Assembly (NCBI RefSeq): GCF_000006405.1
Contig: NW_003200415.1
Coordinates: 166,753 to 230,752, forward strand
DNA from: Perkinsus marinus ATCC 50983
Taxonomy: Eukaryota; Perkinsozoa; Perkinsida; Perkinsidae
Length of the DNA: 64,000 nt
Reading direction: 5' to 3'
Position numbers and translations under genes: made by a program. Below are positions 19,551-63,780 of the stretch, one piece after another. The notes beneath the pieces were generated by a model. The model made no database searches and was not told the origin of the DNA. It saw only the letters and a list, made by a program, of their open reading frames with translations. How positions within the stretch are numbered: the stretch's first letter is position 1; every line of letters starts with the position of its first letter.

Positions 19551-19650
19551 TAAAATATGCACATGGTCAGCGGCATATTTTGGTGACCATATGAAAATTC
19601 TGGGAAAATTTTATGTGGATTCCTTTATATTTCTAGTCAGATTGGTGTAT
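19551..19650. mobile_element. Family A fragment, copy A5
   Basis: Contains AATATGCACATGGTCAG and GAAAATTCTGGGAAAATTTT, the left and middle parts of family A, in the spacer upstream of the WDR18-like gene. No right end is recognisable. Confidence 0.5.
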
Positions 19651-19714
19651 GTGTTCTTCTACACGATGCAGTCCAGCCTCGTTTTCAGGGCTGTTGTTGT
19701 TGTAATCTTGTAGC

Positions 19715-32090: not shown

Positions 32091-33800
32091 GGCGACTACA
32101 GCGAAGCAGCAAGCATTAGAGTTTACAGGCGACTCGCGTCTAAACTCTGCTGCTCCCAGTGATCTCGCTCACGTCTCGACTGGTCCAGGGCGGTTCGGAC
32201 ACGCGCTAGGGTCCCTCAAAGATCCAATGCCTAGCACGATGCTGCGAACGCAACTTTGCACTCAGCATTTTATTTATCGCTGCTAACGAATCACCGATCA
32301 TGATGATCGGATCGTCCCCCCGTCCCAAAGAGTCTTCACTGCCCAGATCTCTTCTTGCAATTCCTGAACGATTCTCCTGAAGGTAGTGCAATCTCAAAAC
32401 TCCCCGGGATGAGGAACTCACTCGAGCCTGTCGTTGTCGCTACGTACGTGACTAGCAGCCGCCTTCAATTCCTTTTTATCAGCATTCAGAGACTGACACG
32501 TGAGCGAGTGTGCAAAGCACCTCGCTCATCGCAGTCCCATCCACTTGTCGAACTCTACAATCCCGTTCCTGGGCCATGGAATGATCCGTGATACCGAGGT
32601 CCCGATGGAGAGTGGAGCCATGTTCCTGGCATCAGCAGATCCACAATCATCCAACTCACCAAGTGACCTGCCTCACCCGCTCAGAAAGAAAAAAATACAA
32701 CGATCAAAGCGGACCGACAACTACACAAGACTCATATCGCACTGCAATCGGCCGCCTATCCACCGCAACATTCGCAGCACTTGAAGAACTATCGTACATC
32801 TCGGACGTGCGCTCTTAGCTCGTGATTTGCACCTCCCAGCACTTCGTGCTCTCCAAAACAACGTGCGGGACGGTGCGATCTGCTCGATATCATTGATCAT
32901 TCGTTGTCGTTCATAGTTAGAGCATTGCGACTCATGGTCCATGCACGACTGCCCCCCTTGTTAGTTAGAGTTTATTAGCGCCAACTGCCTCACTGTGTTC
33001 GAGTGTTACATCATAGGGATCCCGGCTTGACAATATTGTCCTCCTTTTCCCGCCGTTCCTCCTTCAATGCAGCCACATAGTGGGCACTCCGCCGTAGGCA
33101 ATCCTTCTTGTGTTTAGCCTCACATCGGAGTGTATCGAGACGGCTACGGAAAGAGGCGTTCTGAAACCAGTCAGTGTGCCGTTTAACAGACACTGACGCG
33201 ATGATTGCAACGTCGGAACCAAAGTGTGATCACCTCAGCCGCCAGATCGGTGTTGATACGCTTGAGCTTTTCTATTGTCGCCATTTGATCAGAAGATCGT
33301 TGCGCAATTTTATCTTCTACTTCTCATGCGAGCTCACAGCCGATATCTTCGTCGGTTCAGAGCTCCCGCAAGAGGTGATCTGGTACGGAAGTTTTTCAGG
33401 TTGCCGATCAGTATCCGACTCTCACTCTCTCTCTCGAGCACGGAGTTCATGGAGCGATAACTCGAGTACCGATAACGGTACCCCCCCCCAACTGTTCGAC
33501 TGCCTTCCGTACGATCTGCCCCAACCAACCTCTTCACGAGAGCGTCCCTCATACTCCGGCCCCGAGATCGGCTACCTAAGTCCGTTGCTACAGCAACTGC
33601 GGAACCGTCCACTCTGTCACTCACTGATGAGCGATCGTCGAAGGGTTAAATCGGCATGCAGAGGATTTTTCAGTTCTCTCAGTGATGAGAGAACTAAAGA
33701 CTGTCCCAATCACCAAGCATACAACCAACATTTGATCCTTTGCTTACCAGCGATCTGAACACAGAAAAACCATAGACTCTGCCAGCGTCACGCTGGGGCT
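32090..33800 (-). pseudogene. Degenerate copy of a coiled-coil protein gene
   Basis: Minus-strand paralogue of the copy at about 52560-53640. Preserved exons include NASFRSRLDTLRCEAKHKKD with CLRRSAHYVAALKEERREKE (33040-33160) and MATIEKLKRINTDLAAE upstream of a GTGATCAC donor. Elsewhere the frame is broken and local palindromes replace sequence: at 32294-32310 coding text is changed relative to ALKALRDEGADQVIRWQQE in the other copy. Probably a decaying copy; partial expression cannot be excluded. Confidence 0.6.
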
Positions 33801-33829
33801 GGGAAAGATGCTGTACTTAAAACCCGCGG

Positions 33830-34030
33830 GCCGCGGCCCCGGGTCGATATTCGGGCCGAATATCGACCTCGCAGTTGTCCCATCTCTGGCCTCCCAACTT
33901 GGGAGGCCAGACTTGGAGGACCAAACCTCCGAGATGCGAACTTACTCCGGCAAATGCATGAACGCGAATCTCATGGTCAGCGGGAGGACAACAGTCCCGG
34001 GAGCCCCCTCCTTACTAAGGAGGGGGCTGC
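33830..34030. other. Cluster of perfect one-nucleotide-centre palindromes
   Basis: Three long ones lie in 190 bp: 33843-33867 (arm GTCGATATTCGG), 33886-33910 (arm CTGGCCTCCCAA) and 34002-34028 (arm AGCCCCCTCCTTA). Each has a single central base. GC-rich even palindromes (CCCGCGGG, GGCCGCGGCC) lie just upstream. No gene is supported. Confidence 0.85.
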
Positions 34031-35588
34031 CGATAAAGACATGTGACACGATTGAAATGCGCGCGCCCGGTCAACGGTTTTCGAGTGCTGCAAAGCCGAA
34101 ACCGAAGGTGAAATAACCTCGAGTTGGACTATAAGGGTCTACAACGTGGATTGGGTACGGCTGTGAGACTGAGCTTATCCGCGAAAGTCGAGAGTATCCC
34201 TCGACGGGCCAGAATATTTTTTCTTTTTATTTTATTCCCTTGAGTATGGCGAGGCCTTCATACTGATCCCACCAACATTGGAGGACCGGACAGGTATGTC
34301 CGGCTTCCATCCCAGGTGGGCCCTTCGCGCAGCTACGTGGGGGTCACAGGATCGATTGAAGGCATTGGTAGCACCTAATCTGGTTGGATCGTGTGTGGCC
34401 CAAGCAGATTGGGTCATTAGTAATGACTCATTACGGTTAAAGAAACCAACCGTTGGTTACCAACGGGCCGACCGACCACGGTTGCTACCTCCTGCAACAT
34501 GTATTCGATGGGATTCCACTTGCGTAAATGTGACTCACATTATGTGAGAGCCACACCACATTCTGAGCGCGACTTCACAGCTTCATCATAGAGTTTGGTC
34601 TTCGTGAAACACAAATCTTGATCTGCTCCATCTGAGGAGAGGTTATATTTGATATGATCGATAGGAAAGCCTCCTGCATAGAAGTTTCGAAGTTCGCCTG
34701 AGGAAGCCAAACTCATATCATCTCGAGCCATACAAGCCCTTTGTGCTTATAGAGGCTTTATAAGCTGTATAGAGGCTTCGAAGAATCTTCTTTGCGGGAC
34801 TTGTCTCCGAGGCAAGTGGATACGAGACAATGTCTCGTATTCACTTGTCTAATCGTCCCAACGTTCCTTAACAGTCTGTTGGCTCGATGGCAGAGTCTCA
34901 TCAGCAAGAATCGTTGACGACAGGTTGCGGCAATGCACGCTTCAAATAACTTTTCTCCCAGATTCGGAGTTCCAATTCGCAAGGAACGGTTCATCCGCTG
35001 GGGGAGCTGATAATCATGAATGTAGACAAGTCACGAGAACGCGAGTATTATATTAGAAATCAGCGCGATGGAGGGAGTTCAAAGCAGGAAGTGCATGCGA
35101 TACCACCAATGAACTGATAGTGCTGATGCTCCTGGAGAATTACCCGTTAACAACAACTCAGTTGTCGTGTCATTGTAGGTGAATTGCATAATGCTATGCA
35201 TCGTCGTAATGTCGCGTCCCCAACTCTTCTCACGCTTCACGTTTTGAGAATTGGATTTCACTCCGTCATGTCCTGCAACTCTCCTGTGCATTTCTGACAA
35301 ATGACAGCGGACTCGTCAGACAGTCATCGGAACTGCAGCTCCGTACATTCCGGTACGCTAGTTTAGCGGCGACCGCACACGAGACCAGTCTCCATGACCT
35401 CCGCTCTTCCTTCAGGACTGGCGTGACGCCGCTAATCGCGCGAAGCATCCCGACTTTGTTTGTTATTCGTGCGAGGAAGCCCCCATGAGGCCCGATCGAG
35501 AGCTTCTCTCCAACTTTCCATTGGCTCGTCGTCGTCACAGAGGTTCGTCGTCGTCTTGAGTTCTTCAGTATACTCACCCCTACCATCT
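34031..35588. other. Duplicated upstream flank of saposin-like gene 1
   Basis: About 34510-35588 is repeated at 42410-43550 and, in part and inverted, at 57539-58330. It contains further odd palindromes (34413-34434, 34444-34466 and an imperfect one at 34811-34849). A minus-strand frame at 34540-34731 recurs in the other copy but has no recognised domain. The TACTCACCCCTACCATCT stretch directly before the ATG is kept in all three paralogues, so it may be the promoter or 5' UTR. Confidence 0.55.
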
Positions 35589-36395
35589 ATGACTCGCCTG
35601 CTGAATATCTTCGCAACCATCGCCGGTGTCCTAAGCATTCAGGCTGACCCTTTCGCTGACGATCTAGTTGCAAGCTTCATGGCCCTCCTTGGTACTCCGG
35701 ATGTCCACAACTTCATAGACCAAGTCCTGATTGACGCTCCTCCACCGGTTATCGCCGATAACCGTGAGCTGGGTGAGGTTCCCGTAGGCAGAGATCTCTC
35801 GTTCGACCCGCACCCCAAGCCGCGCCCCACTCTGCCCCCCGTCCCCTTCTGTTCTAACTGCAAAACCATCCACAGTACGGCCATCAACGCGTATTTCATC
35901 CAGCAGATCACAAATATTTGCAAGGGAAAAGGGAATGCCGACTCCTTATCCACAGTCGAGTTCTGTGGTTTCCTCCAGAAGGGATTGTCCACGATCAGTC
36001 AGGTCTTGAATGGTTACATCTTCGTGCGCTCCCGTGCTCTTCAACTCGCTACCGCTACATGCATCGGCACTAAACAGTGTCCGACCAAGGATGCCTTCAA
36101 CCCCTTTTTCAATCCTATCGTTCCTGGGCGACTCGTGGACTTCACTCGTTTCGGGTTTTGCCCACGTTGGCCTTTTCACACCGTTGAGGCCTGTTTCGGT
36201 GAGATAACAGAGAAAATGCTGCAATTCGCCTTCGGCAACGTGCTGAATGCATGTGACAGCCTTAAGGACGAGGATCTATTTGAGTTCTGCGGGTATGTAG
36301 CGACTGATAAGAGCTTTGGTCTTGGCCTGGTCTACGGGTATGTTGGTGTATTCGAGCAAGCTACTGGTTATTGTGTCCGCGACCAATGCCATTAG
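35589..36395 (+). CDS. Secreted protein with two saposin-like domains, paralogue 1
   Basis: 268 aa, no intron. [20 protein letters not shown] is a signal peptide. A short acidic helix region (LVASFMALLG) and a Pro-rich linker (PHPKPRPTLPP) follow. Domain 1 has six cysteines in saposin-B order: CSNC, then NICKGK, VEFCGF, TATC and KQC. Domain 2 repeats the theme: FCPRW, EACFGE, NACDS, FEFCGY, GYCVRDQC, ending at His-stop. Saposin-fold proteins bind or perturb lipids, as sphingolipid activators, surfactants or membrane-active effectors. The role here is unknown. A perfect odd palindrome (35746-35764) lies inside the coding sequence and changes the residues relative to both paralogues. The 3' flank GTTTTTATGATATATCATGG is shared with paralogue 2. 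Confidence 0.75.
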   Translation: MTRLLNIFATIAGVLSIQADPFADDLVASFMALLGTPDVHNFIDQVLIDAPPPVIADNRELGEVPVGRDLSFDPHPKPRPTLPPVPFCSNCKTIHSTAINAYFIQQITNICKGKGNADSLSTVEFCGFLQKGLSTISQVLNGYIFVRSRALQLATATCIGTKQCPTKDAFNPFFNPIVPGRLVDFTRFGFCPRWPFHTVEACFGEITEKMLQFAFGNVLNACDSLKDEDLFEFCGYVATDKSFGLGLVYGYVGVFEQATGYCVRDQCH

Positions 36396-38743
36396 TTTTT
36401 ATGATATATCATGGTCCTCCAATGAGTTCGCCTGGAGTTTGTGCTTCTGATCAATGTTCAGATCATGTTGGAACGCAAAAAGTGAGTTCTATATGAAGCT
36501 GATTCGATCAGAAATTCTCCTTTCGTTACATCAACTCTACTACGACTTCATCAAATCCTGATTCTCTTTCATTACATCCAGTCAAGCGCGACTCGACCAC
36601 AGCCTTCAAAGCTGAGCCTTGTTCTCGAGCGCTTCTGGTCTGCGAACTATTCGGTCTACAAGTCAATGCTGATTCTATGGTGCTGTCTCCTATTTCTATG
36701 ATGCACGCATGCGCATCAGCCTGAATATTGCCAGTGGAACGCGTGCCCATCTTCTTGACCTCATGATGTTGTACGTGCACTATTAACTAACCTCGTTATT
36801 TCTCGTCTATGCTCGATCTACTCGAGCTCTCTTATTGCTTCCTATTGTCAGTACGTACTTCCATCTTTCCCCTATGTCTAGTGTTCAACACTAGACAACT
36901 GGCAACTCGCCAGTCGGGCGAAGCGGGCACGCACCGTATCTCCACACCTACACGGAGATTCACAACAACATTAGTCTTCTCTTTCCTATAATATAGGATT
37001 GTGTTCAGCCCTCGGCTGAGTATACCGGATCGAGCATCAGTCGTGGGATCAATGTTACACGGTTCTCAATCTATCCCGAATTGGCGGGACCAGCTCTCGT
37101 GACCAGCCACATCTCCCGTACATCGGGAAGGGAGATGTGGCCATCCCGTCCAACGAGTCCATCGGATATAATTGACATATACGCAGTGGGAAGCAATGGG
37201 TATACCATTGTGATCCTCCATGCCCCTCCAGCTCGTCGGTTGGTATCCGGACGACTGTGTGCGTGTGCGTGTGTGAGTTCAAGTCCAACGCCGACAACAC
37301 GGCTAAGTTAGACTCGTATCGATGCACATTGGCTCCCGAGGGATCAGTTTTTGCCTCTTAAATCGTCTACTTTCATCATGCCAATGAGTTTTGTCCACAG
37401 GGCGGGATAACCTCTGCCAATGTACTTCCTTGAAGGAAGTTCCTTTCCTCTCGGCAAGATCCGCTTACACAACTGCGGGGGCTGTGTACGACAACGGAAC
37501 ACAAACACTCGCCACAGTGTGTTGACCACAAGCATCATCTCGAAAAATCCATATCCTAGCAGAAGTCCTCCCTCACCCGAGACTACCATTCTCGATGGCA
37601 GAAGCATATACTTCTAGTTGCGTTCCTCATATCATGGGTTTGTCGCATTTTTGAGGGTAAGTATCTCACAAAACTTCGCCATAGCTGTGCATCGATTCAC
37701 ACTAATTGTTATTTGCCCAAGAGTTCCGCTTCCGTCCACATAATTCGGACGCAAACGTGGCCGATCTGGTCTTGTGCACTTGAGCAAGAGGTATCCACTG
37801 GGCTCTTCAACATGGCAATGACAGCAATTCTCATCATGCGAACCCAAGCTGCTTGGTATCCTGCTGGTAACTGCTGCAGTAGCTGGGTCAATATCTATAT
37901 CCTCTCGATGAGGTAGAGTGACCGGGGAGCCACTGGAGGAATGCTCCATTATTTCTGTACGATAGTACCAAAGTTTGGTAACCAAACGGACGAATTCTCC
38001 GCCCTCCAGAGTGCCGATCTCTCGTAGACTCAGGTCCAAGCTTCCTCCTCACTGTCTACCTCCTCGGAGAGACTTCCGCGGTCATCTTCCCCATCGTCCA
38101 TCGGATGGTCATTCCAGTCTCCTTTTTCACCTTCTTCCTCGTTCTGTTTCCCTTTCTTCTTATTGACGCCAGGTGTTCCTCGAGGACGCTTCAGTAGGCT
38201 GTTGCGCTGGAACGAGGCCTGCCGCAGGCCGCCTGCGGCAGGTGCCACCGGGCGATGGAGGTGGGCACCCGGCGATCTTCTAGTCACCCGGCCAGGCCCG
38301 GCAGTCTTCTCTCACCCATGTTCCGGGTTTAGCGGGCCCGCCGGGTTGGCCGGAAAACCCGCCAAACCCGGCTGGCGGATTACCAGGCTCACTGTACTAT
38401 TGAGTCTCAAGAATTGAGAGACTGAACGCAATTCATCATCAATGATTCATGATCAGTGATTAATTAACAGAAGACGCAGGCTTAGTCAGCCTTATCGAAA
38501 TTTGATTTGTCTGATAATCAGACAAAAGATCGCACGATAACCAACGAACGCAGGCTGCGCTACGCAGCCTATTCGCTGTTAGACGACTTGAAGTCGTCTA
38601 ACAGCGAAGTTCGCCTTAGCCTGGAGAGGGCCCCGGCAACGGAAAAACAACTTTTGCTACTTACCGATGGTGCTGGGACCCCCATCAAGATTGTAGACAG
38701 AGTAAATAGCTCATCTAGATCTTTGTTGTGGAACCACAATAAT
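36396..38743. other. Duplicated 3' flank, then palindrome-rich non-coding DNA
   Basis: 36396-37030 matches 44676-45270. Odd palindromes occur at 36888-36904, 37424-37440, 37973-37987, 38218-38242 (arm CCTGCCGCAGGC), 38506-38526 (arm TTTGTCTGAT) and 38572-38608 (arm TTCGCTGTTAGACGACTT). A further inverted repeat with a 12-nt loop (CCACATCTCCC … GGGAGATGTGG) is at 37108-37141. Open frames are short and look like chance. Confidence 0.7.
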
Positions 38744-39680
38744 TTATTCCGAAGCGAGACCCGACGATACCGTCGAGGAGAGGCCGACTGTCGTGTTCTT
38801 GATGAATAGGGTAGGTTTTTGCCCTACGCTCATACTCGCTAAGAAGGCTTCGTAGGCGCTCTTCATCGACGTCATTGTGCAATAATTTCTGGGCCCAGAA
38901 GCTGGGGTAAGATCAGAGCAGATTTGATTGCTCATGAAATCGAAGAATGCACTAGTAGACTTCTTCTCGACCTTACATGGTTGTCGATTGGGCTTTGCAA
39001 CAGGCAACGAGACGAATTTGCTGGACATCTTCAGACGTTTCATGCATTCGATAATCGAATTGCATCGATGCATGCAATTCGACAATCGATGCATCGAATT
39101 AGTCGGTCTAAGACCGACCAATTCCATTATCCACTGAGAGCTCCTTTGAATAGGTGCGTGAAGCACCTGTTCTCCATGCTTCTACGCGTGTCAACATTCA
39201 GATAGGCAGCAGCAAGGATGAAATCATCCGCCGTAATATATCCGAAATACTTCTACAGCTGGAAGAGAAGATTTCCCTGCAAATGCCTGACCGTCAGGCC
39301 CATTCCTTGCATTCGTCTGCCCATTGCATTCGTCTGACCCACGCAGTGCTCTTAGTCTCGCTCGGTTGTGAAAAGAGCTTCAACATAGAGATAACCTCAC
39401 GAAGCTGTGTGAGGGTACTGAATTTCGAAGCGCTAAGCAGTTTGGTGGCATCATTCAAAGGCTCTAGAGTATTACAGATAGCCAGCATTAAACCATACTC
39501 GGTGTCTTTCAGTTTACAAGGTTTACACGTCGTATAAATAGGAGAGTTTGGCTTCACATGCTCGGGGGCATCCTTCAAAAACTCCTCATACGATTCTCTA
39601 TTAGCATAGTAATCCTTTAGCATGGCATAGGTAGAATTCCAACGAGTACGGACATCCATGGGGGAAATGTACTTTTTCAA
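38744..39680 (-). pseudogene. Decayed hAT-family transposase
   Basis: The minus-strand frame 39294-39680 carries DVRTRWNSTYAMLKDYY, LEPLNDATKLLSASKFSTLT and LREVISMLKLF. This is the R-W-N-S-T/ML block and following helix region of hAT transposases (RICESLEEPER/ZBED type). A second frame, 38744-39166, continues downstream with weak similarity and an odd palindrome (39102-39118) inside it. No single frame spans the gene and the catalytic regions are missing, so it is inactive here. It is a candidate relative of the source of family A elements, whose 8-bp duplications are hAT-like, but no shared ends were identified. Confidence 0.65.
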
Positions 39681-40130
39681 CTACGGTTGTTTTGCGTCTG
39701 CAAAAATATTGTTTTTGTTAACTATCTTGTTGATAAAGTGTTCGTGTGTTTTTCAACACTTTGCACGTTCAGCACGGTTGGATTTGTACTTGTGTTTTCC
39801 CCACGCGTTTACTTTTGTGGTGTTACTCAATCAACGCCTTTTATCTCGTTGGCTTTATCCTGTGTTGTTTTTCTCTTCATGTTGGCTTTTGCGGTGGTGT
39901 TTCATTAACGCCTTTTTATCTCGTTGGGCAAGTCCTGCGTTGTTTTTCCCTTTATGTTAACTCTTCCGTTCGTCCTTACTTCATGTTTTCTGGATCCAAG
40001 CTGTCCTCGAAAAACATGTATGAAAGTAGTCATACCGCTACCTCACCTCCTCACCTCGCTATCTACCTCACTTCAGCTAACTCCTTTCACCGCTTGATCT
40101 TAGCTTACGATCCTTAAGTAACACTCCTCA
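39681..40130. other. T-rich spacer
   Basis: The plus strand is T-rich with several overlapping hydrophobic frames (about 39650-40117) that are typical composition artefacts. A direct repeat around TTTTATCTCGTTGG occurs at about 39838 and 39914. Nothing else. Confidence 0.4.
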
Positions 40131-40134
40131 GCTT

Positions 40135-40273
40135 TTTTATAGTGTCCAGGACACTATAAAAGCTAAGCCGTGGAAGGAGTACAGGAGCAGCTCCTGTACC
40201 CCTGAGCTCCTGAGGAGCTCTACCTGCAGTACTCCTTGAGAGTACTCGCAGGACACTGTGTCCTGCGAGTACT
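40135..40273. other. Chain of four perfect odd palindromes
   Basis: 40135-40161 (arm TTTTATAGTGTCC, centre A), 40179-40199 (arm GTACAGGAGC, centre A), 40204-40220 (arm GAGCTCCT, centre G) and 40241-40273 (arm AGTACTCGCAGGACAC, centre T). Spacers are 17, 4 and 20 nt. All have exactly one central base. Confidence 0.9.
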
Positions 40274-40476
40274 GTTTGTTGCTCCACAGACGATTTCTGT
40301 AACACAGGTTGCATCTCGCGAGGTGTCGACGACAAAACAACTTCAAGTTAAAGTTTTACTATCTATTTCAGCTGCAGTATAGTTGCGGCTATGCAACCTA
40401 ATCTCTAACATAGTGCAGTCCGTGATATTCTAGACGTGCCGACATTACCACTCCTTAGCATACTCATTAGTTTTCC

Positions 40477-41282
40477 ATGGCAAATACTGAAGAAGTGAAC
40501 GATCTTATATGCAAGTTACAGGCCGTTATTGGAACAAGTAATAATGTGCCTTCTGCACCAAGCTCGGGACCTGACATACAGAATCGAGGGCCGAGTGACC
40601 AAGAGATGCTCAGAGTTGTAGATGTGGGTGATCAGCAGTTATTGCAAAAAACGACTACGGGATATCGTGGGCGTAGCCGTGAATCACGGCCCGTGATTAT
40701 ATCTCGGCCACAAAAGAGATATTCGCAACCAGAGCCGAGGCAGAGAAGAGATTGTCTGAGTTTGCAGGGCTTCCAGATGGGTCACGTATGATCAGGCACG
40801 CGGTGACTTATCCCAAATCGGCAGGTAGTGCTAGGGCGACGTGCACTGGTTACAAGTGTCCTTTCGATAGGAATCCGAATTTCGCTGGATGTGGAATTGC
40901 AATGTGTGTTTGTGGGGATGGCACGGCTGGTTTCCAGGTCATCATGTCTGCTCGGCACTCTCCACATAAAGCACGGTCGTCCCCTATCGACTTGCGCAAA
41001 CGGAAGCCTATGCTCGACTCTCCCACCAAACAGTTGGTGAAAGACTTGAATTCTGCGAGGTCCACGCCACGCGATATCTTTCGCGTTCTCCATGAGAAAC
41101 GAATGCTCCTGGTGGGCGCTACATACAGCACGCTTCTGAAGTCAATTTACAATCTCCGGCACGTGCATAAAAGAAACAATCCAGACCGCCCAGTAGACGA
41201 CCCTATCGGCTCTATCCGTGCGTACTGTCACAGAACTACATTTTCTGAAGCTACACTGTACAGTTATTGCACAGCTGCATGA
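40477..41282 (+). pseudogene. Transposase-like gene broken at a palindrome
   Basis: An ATG at 40477 (MANTEEVNDLICKLQAVIG) opens a frame that reads to about 40680. The natural continuation, DYISATKEIFATRAEAEKRL then SEFAGLPDGSRMIRH, is in another frame from about 40694 to 41282. Between them is the odd palindrome 40682-40698. The second part has CTGYKCPFD, a Cys-rich stretch (CGIAMCVCG) and SARHSPHKARSS, which recalls the zinc-binding N-terminal region of MULE-type transposases (C…C…H-x-H), followed by LRKRKPMLDSPTKQLV. No DDE core follows. The family call is tentative. Confidence 0.45.
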
Positions 41283-42409
41283 AACCAGGAACCAATGTCT
41301 CTATGCAAGTAATTCTCGTCAAGAATGTGATTTCGCTACTTGCCGAATTGGTGACCTCCGCGAAGCCTCACTCGCAACACAGATTTCTGAAAGATAACGT
41401 ATGCTAGGATCTCTTTAACCTCTCAGTCTATAAACGCAGCATCCAATTCTTCAGGAAGCTGGGCTGTTTCGATGGATTCCTTTCAGACTCATCATCGGTT
41501 GAACGCATCTCACGGGGAGATTCTCCCCTCAACTTGATTTAGAACTTGAAGGTATGAAGTATAAATCAGAGGTGCTGCTTACGTCTTAACTACGACCCTC
41601 TAGTACACACCATCGCTGGTGATTCGAGTCACTCGAATCGAGTATGTGGATTGTATCTCGAGCGCGCAATGAAGACTTGCAAACACTCGAGTGCTCAACT
41701 TGACCAGGTCAAGGAAGACGCCCAAACACCATGCGTTATGATACTTGACGTATTGCAACATAACAACATACCCAAAACCTCAGAGAATGACACCTCAGCT
41801 CGACTGCAATTCTCACTGTGGTACCATGGTAATGGAGACTCTAGCTTGAGTTGCGTGCTGCACAACTTTGTGCCACTAATGTACCGTCCACTATGGGTGC
41901 TGGGTCGCTTACACTACTTCCACAGGTTACACCCGTGGGCCACGGGCTGTGGCAGCCACAGTGTGGCTGCCACTTCACTCCAAATTCCTCTCTGTAGCTT
42001 TGCGTATCTGCCAATTACCCACCAAGCGTAACACTCAGTGTCACTGAGTTGGTGAAGATCCTCCCTCATATGATTCGCATCACGGAAATCTGCATCCCAT
42101 CGCTGACTATGACAGCATGAGAAATGCCGGAGAGTCTACTTTGTGATAAGTATCACTACGGAGAACCCTGATATCCCGCTCGAGAACTATCTATCTATGG
42201 GTACCAGTAGACTGCCTTTTAGGTCAATTGTTATCGATTGTGTAGGCGAAACTCAACACGAAGAAAATTTCCAAGTACGAACTTGAGCATCTCACACGCA
42301 ACATTCTTCTAGTTCGAATTCCACGCTTAACAATTTGCTTTATCCTTTCCGGAAGCCCTCCACTCCTCTGAGACGCGGACTTACTCCGACAAATGCATGA
42401 ACGTGAATC
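41283..42409. other. Non-coding accessory DNA with odd palindromes
   Basis: Perfect one-centre palindromes occur at 41621-41639 (arm GATTCGAGT), 41932-41946, 41949-41973 (arm GTGGCAGCCACA) and 42033-42049. A frame at 41651-42031 exists but has no recognisable domain and runs through palindromes. Confidence 0.5.
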
Positions 42410-43550
42410 TCACTTGCGTAAATGTGAGTCACACGGTGTCACACGCTCAGAATGTGGTGTGACTTACACCATATTCTGAGCGCGACTTCACAGCTTCATC
42501 ATAGAGTTTGGTCTTCGTGATCTGCTCCATCTGGAGAGAGGTTATATTGACATGATCGACGGAAAAACCTCCTGCATATAACTTTCGAAATTTGCCTGAG
42601 GAAGCCAAACTCATACCATCTCGAGCCATACAAACCCTTTGTGCTTATAGAGGCTTTATAAGCTGTATAGAGGCTTCAAAGAATCTTCTTTGCGGGACTT
42701 GTCTCCGAGACAACTGAATACGAGACAATGTCTCGTATTCAAATCGTCAAAACGTCCCTCAACAGTCTGTTGGCTTCATGGCAGAGTCTCATCAACAAGG
42801 TTCGTTGAGTACAAGCCGTTGATTGGTCGCGGCAATGCACGCCTCAAATAGATTTTCTCCCGGATTGGGAGTTGCAATTCGCAAGGAACGGTTCATCCGT
42901 TGGGGGAGCTGATAATCATGAATGTAGACAAGTCATGAGAACGCGAGTATTATAGTGGGAATCAGCGCGGTAGAGGGAGTTCAAAGCAGAAAGTGCATGC
43001 GATACCACCAACGAACTGATAGTGCTGATGCTCCTTGAGAATTTCTGTGAATAATAACTCAGTTGTTGTCTCATTGTAGGTGAATTGTATAATGCTATGC
43101 ATCGTCGTAATGTCGTGTCACCAACTCATCTCACGCTTCACGCTTTGAGAATCGGATTTCACTCCGTCATTTCCTGCAACTCTCCTCTACATTTATGGCG
43201 AATGACAGCGGACTCGTCGCTTGCATTATCATGAAATTCTCGACAAAGGAACATCTCATCCGCGGATTCTGAGAGAGAGTCCTATTACTGATAAGTTATC
43301 ATCGTTGGAACTGCAACTCCATACATTTCGGTACGTTAATTTAGCTGCGACCAGTTTCCTTCAGGAAGAGGAGAGACGTTGCTCATCGCGCAAAGTAACC
43401 CGACTGTTATTCGTGCGAGGAAGCCTCCATGAGGCTTCATCCATTGAGAGCTTTTCTCCAACTTTCCATTGGCTTGTCCTCGTCACAGAGTTTCGTCGTC
43501 GACTTGACTCATGACTCTTGATTTCTTCAGTATACTCACCCCTACCATCT
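42410..43550. other. Duplicated upstream flank of saposin-like gene 2
   Basis: Matches 34510-35588. Contains a perfect palindrome at 42715-42741 (arm TGAATACGAGACA, centre A). The equivalent site in the other copy (34811-34849) is longer and imperfect. Confidence 0.6.
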
Positions 43551-44675
43551 ATGACTCGTCTGCTGAATATCTTCGCAACCATCGCCGGTGTCCTGAGCAT
43601 CCAGGCTGATCCTTTCGCTGACGATCTAGTTGCAAACTTCACGGTTCTCCTTGGTAATTCGGATGTCCAAAAGTTCATAGACGAAGCCCTGATGGATGCA
43701 CCTCCACCGCCTAATCTCAATAGTCGTGAGCTGGATGAGGTTCTCGTAGACGGAGATCTCCCGAGCAAGCCGGGCCCCAAGCCGGACCCCAAGCTGGACC
43801 CCAAGCCGGACCCCAAGCTGGACCCCAAGCCGGACCCCAAGGTGGACCCCAAGCCGGACCCCAAGGTGGATCCCAAGCCGGACCCCAAGCCGGACCCCAA
43901 GCCGGACCCCAAGGTGGACCCCAAGCCGGACCCCAAGCTGGACCCCAAGCGGGACCCCAAGCTGGACCCCAAGCCGGACCCCAAGCTGGACCCCAAGCCG
44001 GACCCCAAGCTGGACCCCAAGCCGGACCCCAAGCCGGATCCCAAGCCGGACCCCAAGCCGGACCCCAAGCCGGACCCCAAGCCGGATCCCAAGCCGGACC
44101 CCAAGCCGGACCCCAAGGCCTACCCGTTCTGTTCTAAATGCAAAACCATTCACATTGCGGCCATCAACGCGTATTTCATCCAGCAGATCACCAAGTTTTG
44201 CAAGGGAAAAGGTTATGCCCACTCCTCATCCACATCCGATTTCTGTGGATTCCTCCAGGAGGGAATTTCCTCGCTCAATCAGGTCTTGAATGGTTACATC
44301 TTCGTACGCACCTGTGCTCTTCAACTCGCGACCTCTATATGCATCGCCAATAATCAGTGTCCGACCAAGGATCCCTACAACGCCTTTTCCATTCCGATGG
44401 TTCCTGGACGACCCATAGGCTTGACTGGTTTCGAGTACTGCCCACGTTGGTCTTTTCGCAAGACTAAGGCCTGTTTCGGAGTGATACCAAAGAAACTGCT
44501 GCAGTTCTTCTTCAGCTTGGTGCGGTATGCATGTGATCACTATCATATCAAGGGTCTGGATGAGTACTGCGGGTATATTGCGACTGATTCCAGCTTTGGT
44601 ATTGGCCTGGTCTTGGGGTTTGTGAGTATCTACGAGCAAGCTACCGGTCATTGTGTCCGCAACCTATACCATTAG
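43551..44675 (+). CDS. Secreted protein with two saposin-like domains, paralogue 2, long KPDP linker
   Basis: 374 aa, no intron. The signal peptide [20 protein letters not shown] is identical to paralogue 1. A helix region ([10 protein letters not shown]) follows, then a linker of roughly 110 residues made of [12 protein letters not shown] units. Both six-Cys saposin-like domains follow: CSKC, KFCKGK, SDFCGF, RTCALQ, SICIAN and NQC, then YCPRW, KACFGV, YACDHY, DEYCGY and GHCVRNLYH. The last cysteine of domain 2 is lost: the tail reads NLYH where paralogues 1 and 3 have DQCH. The linker expansion separates the N-terminal helix from the lipid-binding part and is alternately charged (Lys, Asp). 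Domain 1 also has an extra Cys (RTCALQ). Confidence 0.75.
43776..44115 (+). repeat. 12-bp coding minisatellite (PKPD units)
   Basis: About 28 tandem units of CCCAAGCCGGAC, with third-residue variants CTG, GTG and CGG. It encodes [12 protein letters not shown] and PKRD. The unit is a multiple of three, so length changes stay in frame. The antisense strand is open in two frames for the same reason. Confidence 0.95.
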
Positions 44676-46178
44676 TTTTTATGATATATCATGGTCCTCC
44701 AATGAGTTCTTCCGGAGTTTGTGCTTTTGATCAGTGTTCAGATCGTGTTGGAACGCAAAAAGTGAATTCTATATGAAGCTGATCCGATCATCAACTCTCC
44801 TTTCGTTACATCCACTCTACTACGACTTCATCAGAGCCTGATTCTTTTTCATTGCATCCAGTCAAGCGCGACTCGGCTACAGCCTTCAAGGCTGAGCCTT
44901 GTTCTCGAGCGCTTCTGGTCTGCTAACTATTTGGTCTACAAGTCAATGCTGATTCTATGGTGCTGTCTCCTATTTCTATGATGCACGCATGCGCATCAGC
45001 CTGAATATTGCCAGTGTGACGCGTGCGCATCTTCTTGACCTCATGATGATGTACGTGCACTATTAACTAACCTCGTTATTTCTGGTCTGTGCTCGATCTA
45101 CTTGAGCTCTCTTATTGCTTCCTATTGTCAGTACGCACTTCCATCTTTCCCCTATGTCTAGCGTTACCAGTTGGGCGAAGCGGGCACGCACCGTACACGG
45201 AGATTCACAACATTAATCTCCTCTTTCCTACATTATAGGATTGTGTTCAGCCCTCGGCTGAGTATACTGGATCGCCACTCGGGTTAAAAAGTCTTGAATC
45301 AAAACCCGCCGCAGGTCAGCTAGTATGCTATTGAAATGCGAGTCAGTGTCAACATACCATTTCAGAAACGTGGAACGACTCCTATTTACTACGTGAGTAC
45401 TAGTGTATGTAGATCTTTCGTACGTCACGGATGACCAAATCATAAATAATTACGCCCAATACGAATTTTCTTCAGCTCCACGATGTCAAAATGCGCCGTT
45501 TCACGATTACAGCACCACGTTCTGCTGTATAGAAGTTTCGAACTTCGCCCGAGGAAGCCAAACTCATACCATCTCGAGCCATACAAGCCTCTTGTGCTTG
45601 GCCGAGGTTACTCCAGTTGACATAGAGGGTAGAGAGGCAACAGGTCCTTTAGGGAGGCCTGAAGAGCCCCGGCGATGTCGATCCTCGTTGGCTCGATACG
45701 TTGGAACCACAAACTACATACGTTGGGACCCATGGCCAGATGGGTCACTGCATCGATTATAGTGTATTGAGGTTGAAAGGCTCAGGAGAAGTCCAAAGCG
45801 ACTGCTTCTGGGGAGGAAGCTAAGAAGGAGGCTCAGAAGGAGAAGGTCCTCGGTCGAATGAGACGTTCCCATCCACTTGGCCGAGTCGTTAACAGGAAAT
45901 GCAGTGTGAGTTTATGAGACATTAAATTGTTGTAACTGTATCTTTTCAGGTCCCCCTCCTCGGTATGAGCGCCAGGGGCATCAATTATCGTGGTATCGTC
46001 AACCTCATGTGTTTGCTGTAAGTGGTAGTGTTTGTTGAACCTTCCCAGCACTGTCATGGCTGCTACGCCATGATACCGTCTCGATCGCCTACATACGCTG
46101 CAACAGCAGAAACGGCTTGGAGAAGGCTTAGAGTATCCTTTTGGCTGATAGACTATGTATTGAGAATTCGTTAGTGTG
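44676..46178. other. Duplicated 3' flank plus mosaic fragments
   Basis: 44676-45270 matches 36396-37030 but lacks inserted text found there. About 45300-45480 is related, inverted, to about 55750-56110. Around 45535-45600 a short piece repeats part of the 34680 region. The DGAT1 N-terminal fragment follows. No intact gene. Confidence 0.6.
45737..46020 (+). pseudogene. DGAT1 N-terminal fragment copy
   Basis: Near-identical to 28932-29218, from the first DGAT1 intron through the exons reading [14 protein letters not shown] and [13 protein letters not shown], then diverging at the next intron. It has no upstream start exon and no downstream catalytic part in continuity. Confidence 0.85.
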
Positions 46179-46774: not shown

Positions 46775-47451
46775 AGAGTACGACAACCACGACTTTCATG
46801 AGGAACACGATACGGAAGGGAGAGTGAAGATCACAACAAAACGAGCTTGAAGCAAGATGGCTACGGCTCAACTCGGACTCATGAGTGCGCACTATCACTA
46901 ACTCGTTATTAATTGCTTATATACTACGCCACTGGAAGCTCAAAGATTATCAAAACCAAACCGAATATCTGTCATCATCACTGGTTGGCCAACCGTTTCT
47001 GATCCAAAGGGCGGTTGCTAACTTCCAGATCCGACCGACCCGGGGATTTGGACACGCCCCCCTGAAGACTCTTCAGTGAAGAGGTCGTCGATTCTTCACC
47101 ACTCCACACTTCGTCATCCAGGTGAAGCCACTCGAGAACGGATACGCCTGGATCAGCCTGATCCCAAACCACCAGAACCCTAGACTTCCCTTCAGCCGAT
47201 CCACCGCGGTGATGAAGCACAGAACATCAGTGGAAGTGTTTATCGCCGTTCTCGTGGGTGAGTAGGAATCTCAATCTCCAACCAACAAAAGTGGGACCGT
47301 GCTCCAACTCGGCGTACACGTCCCCGCCTTGTCCACGAATATAAAGTGGCACTACGTTGGAGTGATTCACAGTGGTGATTCTTTCCCGATTCCCATTATC
47401 CGCATAGAGGATCTTATATCGCCGCGAGCTCAACCGTCTCGCTTGAGTGCC
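46775..47451. other. Spacer with two consecutive minus-strand frames
   Basis: Minus frames at 47227-47496 (SNVVPLYIRGQGGDVYAELE) and 46978-47220 (VLVVWDQADPGVSVLEW) sit end to end and might be pieces of one decayed protein, possibly from a retroelement. I cannot identify it. A 7+1+7 palindrome lies at 47062-47076. Confidence 0.3.
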
Positions 47452-49033
47452 AAGTGCCCTGTAATCTACTCCGTATGACTGGCCGTGGGTGTTCACCTGT
47501 TGTCAGGATCTTATCGGAAAGGATATTGAAATTAGCTGTGCCCAACTTGTACTTGTGGTTGTTGATGTTTTTCACTCTTTTTCACACTTGGATGAGTGAG
47601 GGGAATTGGGTCTCAGGAGTTCAGTTACTTAATCTTGTTAGATATCCTGGCGGAGTTGACCAGGTTCGGAGATCGCGAGTTTTACTTGGACTGGTGGAAT
47701 TCAGTCAATATTAGAGAATATTGGCAGAAATGGAATCTTCCTGTACGTCCCAGAGTGGACTTGAACGGATAGCGGTGCCGTCCTACAGGTTCACTACTTC
47801 ATCCTTCGTCACATGTACATCCCTATGCGAAGGCAACTGGGTCGTAAGTACTAAAGCCCAGTATGGGAAGACATGCACATGGTCAACCACAAGTGTTGGT
47901 GGAAGGAAAATTCTGAGGACATTTTGAGAAATTCTTCTCATTTGTACGAATTCGGGTAGAAGTGCTCAGGAATCAACAGAAATTTTCCGAAATTTTCGCC
48001 CAGTTTTTATATTGTCACCAGCACATGTAACTGACCATGTGAGTACCTCCCACATTGCTCCAGCCCAGTAGATTATCTACTAAGCATGAGTATCTACTGT
48101 AGATACTCTTTATACAGTAGATAGTGTTCTACTGGTAGATGGTCAGGTTCTCTCTGGTATCGTCCATGAGTACATTTGTATGGTGCCGTTTGGTTTGCCG
48201 TTCTACACTGTGGTCACTCAAGGGTTCATAGCACAGGTTATTACATGTCGAGATGGCTGTAGTGCGATCGAGCGTATCGGCTCAGGTACCACTTCTGATC
48301 ATAACAGAGAAGAAGTTCATCAAATAAAGGCCCAACTTAGGGAATTGCAGGGTACCCCCGCTACAATACTTGTACCATTGAAAAGCGCTCGCCAAGATCT
48401 TTCTAATGAGCTATCTCTCACTGGGATATTTTTTGAATTCTACAAGTTATAGACAATAGCACAGTTTATTTGGGGCACCCTATAGAAGAATTAATGAGGT
48501 TCGGGGCTCCAACGAGTCGCGTGTCCATTCGATCGATATTATAATTTATTGTAGTAGTCGAGGATGTTACTACAGGGTGGTGTTCCAAAAAAGGGCCCAT
48601 CCCGTGGTTGTATATATGTAACTTATAACATTGTATATATGTTGTAACCATACACAGTATGGTTGTTTGAGTGTGGCAGTCTTACTCCCTCATGATGTTG
48701 TATTATACTGTATACGGAATGATCGATTCGCCTTGTAATGATGATGAGAGTGACAATGGCAAAAAGGACCAGTTGTGAGTTGATTTCCTAGTGTTGTCTT
48801 TCAGGTGTTCTTCCTACTCAAATACATGTGAGGCGGCTAGTGTGTTTACCCGATTTATTCCGCAAAGTTGACAATACATCGTCGGTTACCGTAAGCTTTG
48901 AAGCTATACTCTGAAAAATGGCCGGCTCAATTTTGATGTTTGGTGTTCCAGTCGTGAATGTTTGAGGTGTATACTGCTTCCCTAGGGTATAACGTGCTTA
49001 TCGTAAGTATTGCATCTGAAGATTTTGTAGTCG
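47452..49033 (+). pseudogene. DGAT1 C-terminal fragment copy
   Basis: Duplicate of 30385-32062. It retains [20 protein letters not shown], the [12 protein letters not shown] region and [13 protein letters not shown]. It lacks part of the [13 protein letters not shown] exon (deleted after RRQLG). It also lacks the segment coding [15 protein letters not shown]: the text jumps from GGGAATTGCA directly to GGGTACCCCC. It is therefore non-functional as an acyltransferase. Confidence 0.85.
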
Positions 49034-53640: not shown

Positions 53641-56600
53641 TCAAGGCTGCCGATCAGTATCCGACTCTCACTTTCTCTCGAGCATGGAGTTCATGGAGCG
53701 ATAGCTCGAGTTGGCGGTATCGATTCTTTAGTACAGCCAGCTCCCTATCGAATGATCGATTGAAGGTTAGGAACAGAGACTCGAACCCCTCTCCCCTAAC
53801 TGTTCGGCTGCCTTCCGCCTTCGGTCTGCCCCAGCCACCCTCTTCACGAGAGCGTCTCCCATATCCCGCAATCGCTCACACTCTCTCTTACTCGCCATGT
53901 GAAGTGAACGATAATGCCTGGCCCCGAGATCGGCTACCTAAGTCCGTTGCTACAGTAACTGCGGAACCGTGCACTCTGTCACTCACTGATGAGCGATCCT
54001 CAAAGGGTTCATTCGGCATGCAGAGGATACTCAGGAACGAGAGAACTGAATACTGTCCCAATCACCAAGAACACAACAAAGATTACACAACAACAAACGG
54101 AGGTCCTTTGCTTACCAGCGACCTGAACACAGAAATTCCATAGACTCTGCCAGCGTCACGCTGGAGCTGGGTAAGATGCTGTACTTCAAACCGGCGGCCC
54201 GGAAACCGGGGCTTGCGTTTGGCAATAGAGGACTGTTAGAAGGTTGAGATTGACTGCAGTGAAACAACTACCCGAATATCGACCTCGCAGTGCACTGAAC
54301 GTTCCCTATCAAAGTTACCACTTTATTGGGTACATACGCTCCATATACATTCGAGGTTCTCAGCCCAGCCTGGGTTGTACTCGTCCAAGCCGCCCTTCGT
54401 ATTATCTGATCTTCGAACTCCGGCGAGAATGCCCCGATCAGCCTCTCCGAGATGTCCTCTACTAGATGAGTCAGTCTGAACGGCGACCAGATCAGAACGC
54501 CGCGGAGACCACCACTCAGTAGTCGCCGACATGAGTGATAGGGTCGCGACTCGTTAATTTCACTGGGTGAATGGAGGTGAATGTACGAAGCGGATTGATC
54601 AGTGCATATACGAAGGCACATCAAAACTGTACTCCGAACTACTAACGGGCAAGAGATGCTCGAGAGGCGGCCGTATTGGATGAAAATCGCCATGAAGGTT
54701 AATAGGTTCGACTAACTGGAGGGAAGCAGGGAAGAACTCTACTATAATGCTCACTCCTCTGACATGCGAACTTACTCCGGCAAATGCATGACCATGCGAG
54801 TCGCATGGAGCATGGCATGTCGTTTTGTTTTCATCGAGTTGAGTAGTCGATGAAGTCCGACCCATTAATGCGACAAGATATCCGGCGCGGTCTATGATAA
54901 GAAGCAAGAATGTACAAGTTTTTCTTCGCTTTCACGGGTTGTCACAGATATTGCGCCAAGATCTACCCCATTAAATTTCTATCTTGGCGCACGAAATTGT
55001 AACGGGTTCGAGTAGATGTAGCGGAAGGGTGTGATGTGATAGTAAAGCCCACGGACTGGATAACACAAGTACGGATGAGCTTGTAGAGCCTCTACAGTAG
55101 AGGTAGCTGAGGTACGGAACCTTAGGGCAGTGACTCAAGAGGAGAGGGAAGGGAAACGTGCCGTCCAGCGTCTGGGCGAACTACCATCACCATTAGCTAT
55201 AGATCTCAGGAAGCACGCAAGCACGTTGATGTGCGCAGGATCCAATAACAAACTAGCCCGCCTGGCGAAAGTGAAGCCTGTGATGGTGGTGTAGAGGCTG
55301 GGAAGGTGTAGATAGTTCTGGACGGCTAACGTAAAGCTCTTCATCAGCAAGATCAGTGAGGTTGTGACATAGGTCGCAGTATTCTTCAGACGCATTCCTT
55401 TGTGTCATTCAAATGACCAAAGCGATACACATATTCTATGAGTAACATCATGGCGATCGCGCCAAGAAATCGTCCGTGAAGCAATTACCGTTTCGGAGGC
55501 TCATGATCGCCATGAACTTAACCCAAAACTACAGACTATTTTCTGACCTATTCGCTTCACCTATCCATTGTTGTGTGATGACCAATGGATCGCCAGACTT
55601 GATCATTGACGTTTTGATGAAGCGAACGGAGTCGTTGTGCGAGTGGTGATCCAAATATATACGGCTCATCGTCAAAATCTCTATCATCGGAATTTTCCCT
55701 TGGGAGAGTGGATACCGCATGCAAAGTCATAAAACGGCACATTCTAACATTGTGGGTCTAAGGGAACTTCGTGTTGAGCGTAAGAATTTATGATTCGCTC
55801 ATCTGTGACGCACGAAAGATCTACATATAGTACTAACGTATTTAATAGGAGTTGTTTCACGTTTTTGAATTGGTATGTTCGTTGGAATTTCGGAATGATT
55901 GTGACCAGCTGATGAAAATTGAGAAAAAATGCATTCTTCCAGAACAAGTGAAGTCATTAGAAATTCATGCAAAACATCAAGTTGACTTGGAAACGCTGTA
56001 GCTGACTTTCACACTTGAACGAGTCCGACATTATTTACTCTTGGATCACTACTTGTCACATTACTTGTTCCCAAACCGATCGGGACGAGGATCTGCACTG
56101 ACTCGCATATCAATTGCATACTAGCCGATATGCGGCGGGTTTTGAACCCGAGTGGATACGCATATCATTGTACAGATGCGAACACAAGCAATGTCATGGG
56201 AAGGAGCGAGTACCTACCCAAGCATGCTCCACAGAGTATTCCGGATAACAACCGACTAGCTGGAGGGGTATGGAGTATCACAATGGTATACCCATTGCGT
56301 ATCGCTGAGTATATGTATATTATATGCGATAGACTCGTTTGGGAGATCTAGCTCGTCATGAGAGTTGGCCACGCCAATCCGAGATAGATTGAGAACCGTA
56401 TGACATCATTCCCACGACTGTTACAGCGTTTGATCTCCATATACTCAGCCACGGGCTGAACACAACCCCATTGTATCGGAAAGAGAAAAATGTGAACAAA
56501 GATGAAGATAAAAATAAATTGTAAAAAATAAAAAGATGAAAAACGTCTGAGAAGAAGGCTGGAGTCGAGTCGCATTGGCTTAGATATAATAAGAAGTGTT

Positions 56601-58330: not shown

Positions 58331-59320
58331 CCAACGGACTGCTAAGGAACGTTGCGTGGCAGGGCTAATCCAAGCAGTCATTGTTAAATCAAGCAAGTCC
58401 TGTAATATCAAGCAGACCTTGTTATCTCAAGCTCGCTATAGCGCATGGGGGATATACCAAGAATGGGAAAGGGCTTCGCGAGCGAAGCGAGCGAAGAGGA
58501 AAATCAAAGCGCAAAGATGTTCTACGTTTCCCAGCAATATGACCCTTCTCATATCACTCCAAGTAAAGCACTTTTGGAGAATCGGAAAGAGTTAACTAAG
58601 TAACTCAATGTTCTGGGTGCGAACTAATGGTTATTGAATATAGGACGTTGGGGATGTTGGGATCTGGAAAACGTACCCACATCCCCAGGCGAGCCAAGAT
58701 GTGAGGGGATTGTACTCGCAGTGGCGCGCTGATATTAGTTATGATGGTGCTACCACCAATTATCGATCAGTCATCTAAGTTCGTTCTACACAATATTATA
58801 TTATTGATATGTGATACGCATATTACGTGATTCTCGTCCGAAACTTCTGCGAGAGCTTCGGTTCGGAAGTTCCAGACACCAATCCAAGTGGTAGCGACTT
58901 GCTACTAGCAAGAATCGTCGTTGTTTTTTTCTTTGTAAGGTAAAGGGTCCAGCTTGGCTTCTTGACACAGGGTGCATGTTTTTATTACAGAATGAAACGT
59001 GCACGCAGTGATGTTCGATGTGTTATGGTCATTGAGGCATGATGTCTCAGCCTGAGACTCTCAGGTATCTATCGGCTGTTCAATGACGAGCAGTGTCACC
59101 CAACATACGGAAAGCACTCAAACAGTTCGGTTGCTAGTCTTGCCAGTCGATAAGTAACAATGACAAGGCGGGTCACACTGGCTGCCAAGGAGAAGCCATT
59201 CGAGGGAGAGTCGAACTCGCGTCATATTTTTCATTCTAGTGAAAACCTAATCGATGAGCGGGGCGCGCGCAATTTCACCGCCAGATTGTTCATCAGTTGC
59301 AGACATGCGGCGGAGATGTA
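58331..59320. other. Gene-poor spacer
   Basis: Only short frames. A 7+1+7 palindrome GTCTCAG-C-CTGAGAC lies at 59044-59058. Nothing else supported. Confidence 0.35.
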
Positions 59321-62250: not shown

Positions 62251-63780
62251 TTTCTCGTTCGATTACGGTATTACGCCTTATATCTTACGCTCCAGAACAT
62301 GTTCATGCCCTGTGCACTTACTAAGTATCTTATCTATCAAAGGTGTCACACTTTGTGTCTCACTTCAAGTGAGTCACTTAGTATCGGGTCAAAGCGTGAT
62401 AGCACTCTAGTGAGATATATCATTCACTCCGAAGACAGCGCGAGTGATGATCAATGCTGAATACCAAACACATGATTGCTCTTGCATGTCGTGATTGAAT
62501 CAGATGAGATAACAGTTAAAGTGAGTCCCATCTTCGAGTATCCTCCCTCTTTTAGCATCGTATCAGTTGTGTCTCATGGTTTGGTACGATTGTACGAATT
62601 GACGACTCAACAATACCCAGAAGTTAAACCCTAAAGTAGGCATTACGTAAGTATTACGGGCAACTTTGACATTCTACACGAGAAACATTCACTCATGGGC
62701 AGTGGCACTCATCGGAGCGTCTTCGTGGAGCTATTGTTATGGACTTCGCAGAGGTGCCGAAGGATTGTACAGGGGAAACGCAACACGGACTAAATTACTG
62801 ATTATGAACTCTACAGCCCTCCGCACACAATATTCACTCCCGGGCACCACTAGAGGGCCTTCATAGAGATACTATTAAGGGCTACAAGAGAAGCATATTG
62901 AGAAACGTCCAAATTTTTCTCTACCAATCACCGAGACAGCTACTTGTAGCAACTACAACAGCTGGGCACCACTGACTCAGTGGCACCGAGGAGCCTACCT
63001 TACTGCGAGTGCGTACATGGTCGCCAGTCTCCAATGATGGGAGAAACTACTCCGATTCCTCACGCTCGTCCTCTTTCGACCGCTTCTGCTGCAATTCTTT
63101 TGCCGCGTGGCTCTCATACTCCTCCACCAATAAAATAGCATTGTTGTTAGGCGAGTACTTTCGCATTATCTCCTCACATCTGGTACCTCGGGAGAACTTG
63201 TTCAGCACCGGGTAGATGCGGAGTGCTAACTTAGCACTGCTAAGCCAGCCTGCCTCTTTCCTCGATAGTCTCGTTCGCGAGGGGCATCTTTCTGCAATGA
63301 CCAGTATTTGCTCAGACTATAGGCCATGTAAGGATCAGGATGCGTGTATGAAAGTCACGACATCTCGCATGGGCACCACTGGGGTGCCTGCAATACAGCA
63401 CTGCACTGCAGATGAGTGATCCGTGTTGATCCAAATAAGTGATCTCGGATCACTCAGTACGAGTGATTCCGCCCAATACGAACTACCATCTAAACACAAA
63501 TCCGCTCCCTCGTCCTTCTGTGACCATGTGCGGATTGCAATGATGTGGAAAATATGAAAATCCAACGAACCCTTAACGAATCTAAGTCTTTACTAACGAC
63601 CTACTACCACTTACAATAGTCCATCCATCATCCTCCCAGTGCTGCAACTATACTTATCTATATCGACAGAACCAAAGAACTTTGCGAAATAGTCACCACT
63701 CAGAGACTTCGGAACTATAATGCAATGCTCAACACAATCACCAACAACCCACCAAGGTTCGACTCTCGCGTGCGAAATTT
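62251..63780. other. Gene-poor spacer
   Basis: Chained odd palindromes occur at 63223-63244 (GTGCTAA-C-TTAGCAC overlapping CTTAGCA-C-TGCTAAG). A phrase near 63465 (CCGCCCAATACGAA) resembles the 45450 repeat. No gene supported. Confidence 0.35.

Follow-up and report, generated by a model that had tools for sequence, protein, structure and literature searches.

Why should one short region of a genome be crowded with perfect palindromes that all turn on a single base? The question is posed by a stretch of 64,000 nucleotides (nt) from Perkinsus marinus ATCC 50983 (contig NW_003200415.1, positions 166,753 to 230,752 of the forward strand), hereafter the window, in which perfect inverted repeats (arms of 8 nt or more around a 1-nt centre), here called palindromes, cluster between positions 32290 and 42745 (the region). 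Our answer is that most palindromes are, with high probability, excision footprints of hAT-superfamily DNA transposons. An initial annotation made from the letters alone had listed 21 of those in the region; all are present, most at the starts given, although three begin elsewhere (33842, 33885 and 36875 rather than 33843, 33886 and 36888), and the nearly full list overlooked one, at 34820-34840. The window holds 26 palindromes, 22 of which start within the region. Shuffling the region within 60-nt blocks left a mean of 0.13 (200 runs), close to the 0.16 that the annotation had estimated, and two further observations of its authorship also held: the longest arm is 18 nt (38572-38608), and no palindrome starts within window positions 1-32000.

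The preference for a single-base centre extends beyond the window. In a 264-kb sample composed of the window and twenty further 10-kb stretches of this genome, 57 palindromes were found at a spacer of one base, against 3-4 in each of three shuffles; the remaining spacers from 0 to 20 gave 1-13 each (mean 6.25), with 6 at spacer 0. The spacer-length distribution thus has the excess at 1 nt on which the initial annotation staked its reading, and the excess is also seen at other loci of the genome (5 palindromes in L014, 10 in L015 and 7 in L022). Inverted repeats with a 12-nt spacer were also rather frequent (13 in the sample, 9 of them in the window). Taken singly, the palindrome arms look unrelated, yet adjacent palindromes have an 8-mer in common and are therefore not independent.

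Five related gene copies, three in the window (34.5-36.9, 42.4-45.2 and 58.3-56.2 kb) and one each in L014 and L015, were aligned around three palindromes. The left and right palindromes of a pair carry an identical 8-base-pair (bp) word, T: the left one ends in T1-T7 and has the complement of T8 as its centre, while in the right one the complement of T1 forms the centre and T2-T8 come after it. At L015 3298-3337 (minus strand), for example, GCGAGTCTAT-G-ATAGACTCGC precedes CCGATAGAC-T-GTCTATCGG; in the window copy, AGTCTATC stands a single time. The same rule joins palindromes 40135 and 40241 (AGTGTCCT), 40179 and 40204 (CAGGAGCT), 42699 and 42715 (TTGTCTCG), and 48067 and 48088 (AGTAGATA). 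An exact partner lies within 160 nt of 24 of the 57 palindromes; control probes, reversed or without complementing, found 0 and 1 of 57, respectively.

Where two palindromes overlap fully, the pair collapses into a compact form of 22 nt, T1-7 followed by the reverse complement rc(T1-8) and T2-8. This form occurs exactly 26 times in 264 kb, with 0.001 expected. When target lengths of 5-14 and centre offsets of 0-4 were scanned, length 8 with offset 1 stood out as the one clear peak; the minor extras were length 10/offset 3 (2 against 0.001 expected), 5/0 (2 against 0.25), 5/1 (9 against 4) and 6/1 (3 against 0.25). Allowing up to one, two or three mismatches raised the count to 51, 72 and 107, compared with 0, 0, 0, then 0, 1, 1 and 6, 6, 6 in three shuffles. 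With the centre bases left free, in a larger fetched set of about 319 kb that served for some scar counts, both centres were the predicted complement of the target base adjoining the element in 46 of 54 cases, one was in 7 and neither in 1. The constant geometry that the initial annotation had stressed holds across sites in this form.

By partner class, 22 of the 57 palindromes lie in a compact scar with at most two mismatches, 10 in a longer exact pair, and 25 are single. The region's 22 divide into 8 compact, 6 in long pairs and 8 single, so that 14 are paired, one of them weakly. The annotation's remark that this was not one element was correct insofar as each site differs in sequence, but one kind of mobile element accounts for these 14. 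The sites in the window are as follows.

32295..32316, compact scar, one mismatch, T = CGATCATC, palindrome 32294
33775..33796, compact scar, one mismatch, T = GACGCTGG, common to 54143-54164
33842..34028, three single palindromes with 13-nt arms and no partner (33842, 33885, 34002)
34413..34434, exact compact scar on target GTCATTAC
34444..34465, exact compact scar on target AACCAACG, containing palindrome 34450
34527..34548, exact compact scar on target AATGTGAG
34801..34840, long pair on target TTGTCTCG, with one base of the left half decayed (palindrome 34820); the scar recurs at 42699-42741
36875..36914, palindrome 36875 with a right-hand quasi-palindrome; an insertion when compared with the 45.2-kb copy, with no exact 8-mer partner
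37425..37446, compact scar, one mismatch, T = CTTCCTTC, palindrome 37424
37966..37987, exact compact scar on target TACCAAAC
38216..38242, exact compact scar on target GGCCTGCG, containing palindrome 38218
38506..38608, two single palindromes without partner (38506, arm 10; 38572, arm 18, the longest)
40135..40273, long pair that includes filler, on target AGTGTCCT (palindromes 40135 and 40241)
40179..40220, another pair, nested, on target CAGGAGCT (palindromes 40179 and 40204)
40676..40698, compact scar, exact, T = GCCGTGAT, palindrome 40682
41621..41644, compact scar, one mismatch, T = TTCGAGTG, palindrome 41621; common to L014:5296
41692..41713, compact scar, one mismatch, T = TGGTCAAG; shorter by exactly 14 nt in L014
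41947..41973, exact compact scar on target CTGTGGCT, containing palindrome 41949
42034..42055, possible compact scar, two mismatches, weak, palindrome 42033
42699..42741, long pair on target TTGTCTCG, containing palindrome 42715
44880..44901, exact compact scar on target CAGCCTTG; a copy at 36600-36621 is decayed
47062..47083, exact compact scar on target CTGAAGAG
48067..48108, long pair on target AGTAGATA, containing palindrome 48088; a copy near 31 kb differs by two bases
55082..55103, exact compact scar on target TGTAGAGG
59044..59065, exact compact scar on target GTCTCAGG
63223..63244, exact compact scar on target GTGCTAAG, with palindrome 63222

Related copies preserve the sites as they are without the scar. 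Among 112 scars with at most two mismatches (319 kb, after removal of redundant loci), 22 are spanned by a related copy in the fetched DNA. For nine of these, one copy or more is shorter by exactly 14 nt, and in eight of the nine the shorter copy holds the 8-mer with at most two changes; the 14-nt-shorter copy is the empty site, with the target present once, in the right place and at the right length. At least one copy of equal length, in which the scar is shared, was found for 11 of the 22, several pairs being counted from both sides, and two scars fell into both classes. The TTGTCTCG scar is common to two window copies and L015, and L014 carries the word only once at the place corresponding to 34801..34840, which dates the excision between duplications.

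The joint itself varies little. Random joining of opened hairpins would yield varied inserts, composed of a nt taken from the left and b nt from the right of rc(T), and we counted these in the 319 kb (a and b from 0 to 8, low-complexity words dropped). The combination a+b=8 gave 41 inserts against 0.001 expected, and every cell with a+b of 7 or of 9-16 was empty. Shorter joints were less distinct: cells with a+b of 5 or 6 held 0-2 against 0.02-0.08 expected, a small surplus, those with a+b=4 held 0-2 against 0.3, and the classical short form (1,1) occurred once against 4.9 expected. The (0,0) class numbered 223 against 78 expected and may comprise plain direct repeats or clean joins. The product is thus nearly uniform among recognisably long joints, and short joints may exist beside it.

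These regularities suggest how the scars could have arisen. A hAT element would have been flanked by two copies of T. The transposase would place a nick in each flank, one base in, and the 3' end so freed would attack the opposite strand, sealing the chromosome end as a hairpin that on the left would read T1-T7, the complement of T8, and then back. If the host opened each hairpin far from its tip, long 3' tails would be left, the left one carrying rc(T) and the right one T, so that the tails would be complementary over 8 nt for any target. Annealing over T and fill-in would then give T1-7, rc(T) and T2-8, that is, 22 nt and a gain of 14 nt over the empty site; where the tails did not anneal over T, longer palindromes with filler would result, as proposed for 40135/40241, 40179/40204 and 42699/42715. 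By our own reasoning, the complementary centres would fix the polarity of this reaction as an opening that leaves 3' tails. We infer the hairpin intermediate and all steps after cutting, including the place of opening and the annealing, from the form of the scars. The genome contains weak matches to Ku (best 2.2e-6) and a match of the SNM1/Pso2 type (8.8e-16), which is too little to explain the uniform joint.

Elements of the required kind are resident. A search of the 54.46-Mb genome (347 contigs) placed matches to PF05699, the hAT dimerisation domain, at no fewer than 14 places; three open reading frames (ORFs) of 842, 703 and 760 amino acids carry it. Four elements have terminal inverted repeats (TIRs) and exact 8-bp duplications, and at a fifth locus, L036, no element with both was found.

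L037 115-3421, hAT element with imperfect TIR, CCGCGAAT
L038 590-3640, hAT element with TIR and 8-bp duplication, CAGGGGTTTATC and GTCGTGGT
L039 346-2941, hAT element with TIR and 8-bp duplication, CAGGGGCGGC and ACCCCAAC
L040 1612-3327, hAT element with TIR and 8-bp duplication, TATAGATGGGC and GTGTTGAA

The empty site of the L040 element is a neighbouring repeat unit in L040 with GTGTTGAA once, and that of the L039 element is a related place on contig C137 with ACCCCAAC once. The left ends of two elements were searched in the genome, that of L038 matching 2 places and that of L039 one. A look by eye had raised ORF 39294-39680 (minus strand) as a hAT relic; it matches no Pfam family and does not resemble the genome's hAT ORFs, and was rejected. 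Likewise, a search of the sample stretches, the window and the hAT loci for further hAT-like insertions (an 8-bp repeat with TIRs) returned 14 candidates where shifted controls gave 14 and 9, and nothing stood out apart from the known elements.

Scars are unevenly distributed. Nine hAT loci (43 kb) contain 18 exact compact scars. Window positions 32001-64000 (32 kb) contain 12 and positions 1-32000 none, L015 (10 kb, chosen because it bears a palindrome) contains 10, four loci retrieved on account of other genes (12 kb) contain 2, and 19 tiles that were picked before the rule was known (190 kb) contain 4; the tiles are not a random sample, 11 of the 19 lying on the window's contig. The clustering near hAT genes fits local hopping, and it fits a shared tolerance of intergenic islands as well. 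About 1 kb of L036 (5123-6155), lying downstream of an ORF for a hAT transposase, holds five scars, four of them exact and one with a mismatch, a cluster that may reflect local hopping. Extrapolation from 13 tile scars with at most one mismatch gives, roughly, a few thousand scars genome-wide, as against the 14 or more hAT-domain matches.

Several observations weigh against a hAT origin or limit its reach. No scar is tied to a particular element; in the flanks of three of the four elements we found no site filled in one copy and scarred in another, and the two empty related sites (of the L039 and L040 elements) carry no scar. Within the window no hAT element was recognised; the genome's hAT ORFs match nothing in it at E<=0.01. 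Of the 22 comparable scars, four fit neither length class (net differences of 2, 2, 12 and -15). The copy of scar 32295..32316 at 52.9 kb is 12 rather than 14 nt shorter, and one of the nine 14-nt gaps comes from an alignment of 62.6% identity with a 3-mismatch target. By our own arithmetic a given palindrome fits the rule with two mismatches by chance in about 2.6% of cases, which makes the fit of 42033 insecure. The sites 36875-36914 and L014 8188-8225 (minus strand; 8203/8188) look by eye closer to a 4-bp overlap, a target length below the range of the scans, which began at 5; they are perhaps trimmed scars or a second class of element. The largest remainder is the 25 of 57 palindromes without a partner, among them 8 of the region's 22 (33842, 33885, 34002, 35746, 36875, 38506, 38572 and 39102) and hence the longest. 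As these 25 exceed the mean of 6.25 at other spacers, trimming of one end in a hairpin-derived joint probably accounts for many of them, and 33842, 33885 and 34002 are perhaps such one-sided joints. Beside two of the singles, 34002 and 38572, inspection by eye found no target remnants. Six singles, all but 35746 and 36875, have no individual explanation.

Palindrome 35746 differs in kind: it is perfect in one copy and aligns, without any change of length, with four related copies that are imperfect there. It could be a product of chance or of something else, and it is what one would expect of snap-back synthesis or quasi-palindrome correction, in which template switching at imperfect inverted repeats perfects them. 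The initial annotation had favoured such a process, which yields perfect palindromes and could accommodate the partnerless ones. It has no reason to prefer a spacer of 1 over 0, 2 or 3, and predicts neither pairs with a common 8-mer and complementary centres nor an exact net gain of 14 nt. Length-neutral conversion does not hold for the paired scars, which gain 14 nt; 35746 alone keeps its length. Shared 8-bp words and the 14-nt gain are predicted by hAT excision and not by correction, which we therefore reject for the paired palindromes and consider very improbable as the general source; the annotation's broader suspicion of a hairpin process stands, since hairpin intermediates best explain the data.

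Flank hairpins occur beyond hAT, and the footprints might belong to another hairpin-forming class, either Transib/RAG-like or an unknown superfamily with 8-bp duplications. The missing tie between scars and identified elements would leave room for it, as would the few joints that fit a 4-bp overlap. Transib/RAG excision uses 5-bp targets and leaves even-centred palindromes, however, and length 5 with offset 0 yields 2 against 0.25 expected where length 8 with offset 1 yields 26, just as spacer 0 falls far below spacer 1. With hAT elements bearing exact 8-bp duplications in residence, another class seems very unlikely. Perfect dyad symmetry would also suit binding sites of dimeric proteins or RNA hairpins retained by selection, but the sequence differs at almost every site, the palindromes come and go among related gene copies as 14-nt insertions, and the window has no Rfam match, which together leave this explanation almost no probability.

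If hAT excision is the source, the cutting mechanism is known, and what appears new is the nearly uniform product, with one 8-nt insert in every joint well above chance, and the large excess of scars over elements. Our searches of open-licence papers turned up no description of a uniform T/rc(T)/T product, or of such scars in Perkinsus. A bolder proposal, which we rate at somewhat less than an even chance, is that hAT excision here has essentially one outcome, hairpins being opened beyond the target, the tails annealing over it and a 22-nt scar being left each time, and that a few elements hopping repeatedly have produced heritable scars that outnumber them by orders of magnitude. Were this true, a scar of +14 nt would never be frame-neutral, and the genome could be read as a record of the visits of transposons and of one end-joining pathway. 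The T1-7/rc(T)/T2-8 signature is in any case precise and countable, and could serve to map and date past hAT excisions in genomes where no element is left. That no other joints are detectable suggests that hairpins are opened and joined mainly via one annealing step in this early-branching alveolate, in contrast with the mixed footprints of yeasts and plants. Odd-centred palindromes should not be taken as regulatory sites or replication errors without a check for scars.

Other features of the window and the genome were noted. Related genes with a hydrophobic start lie at 43518-44675 and 35460-36395, with copies at 57 kb (minus strand), in L014 and in L015; the gene at 43518-44675 has a long DPKPDPK repeat and a weak match to PF05887, below the cut-off. 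CCGTAGCCATCTTGGCTCAAG has 34 exact copies in the genome, its reversed control none, and corresponds to what is described as the PmaSL1 spliced leader of Perkinsus marinus minus its first base (PMC3101222). The longest ORF of the window is 662 amino acids, and a tRNA search of the window found none. The motif CACTAGTG-AAAAACATATTTCACG is repeated at window positions 18118-25054 and at L016 7810-9737, with inverted ends about 4.1 kb apart (20933-25054), and possibly represents another repeat or element family.

Several known systems resemble this one. V(D)J coding joints also receive palindromic P-nucleotides from opened hairpins, but they involve no target duplication and have even centres, and a programmed rearrangement is not suggested in this genome. 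As described for mPing, a target duplication supplies the microhomology that sets the joint (PMC4561436); repair there is, by the title of that report, precise, whereas here the duplication would be used inverted and 14 nt are left. For Hermes and Kat1, the published account covers the biochemistry of cutting, in which hAT transposases nick and then seal the flank as a hairpin; Kat1 does so mostly 1 nt from the TIR start, which predicts the one-base centre (PMC4763223), and our observations concern the repair product. The closest parallel is Ac/Ds, whose reported footprints in Candida, yeast and plants contain palindromes centred on the complement of the element-adjoining base, often with microhomology; in S. 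cerevisiae 66 of 140 footprints had arms of at least 3 nt, reaching up to 20 nt, and in Candida the P-nucleotides numbered at most 3 (PMC5873905, PMC1978519). hAT excision, complement-centred P-nucleotides and joining by microhomology are thus common to both systems as far as these reports describe them. Theirs are mixed and mostly short P-nucleotides left by introduced elements, whereas P. marinus keeps a resident, heritable record of nearly one product, in which the whole 8-nt target is inverted.

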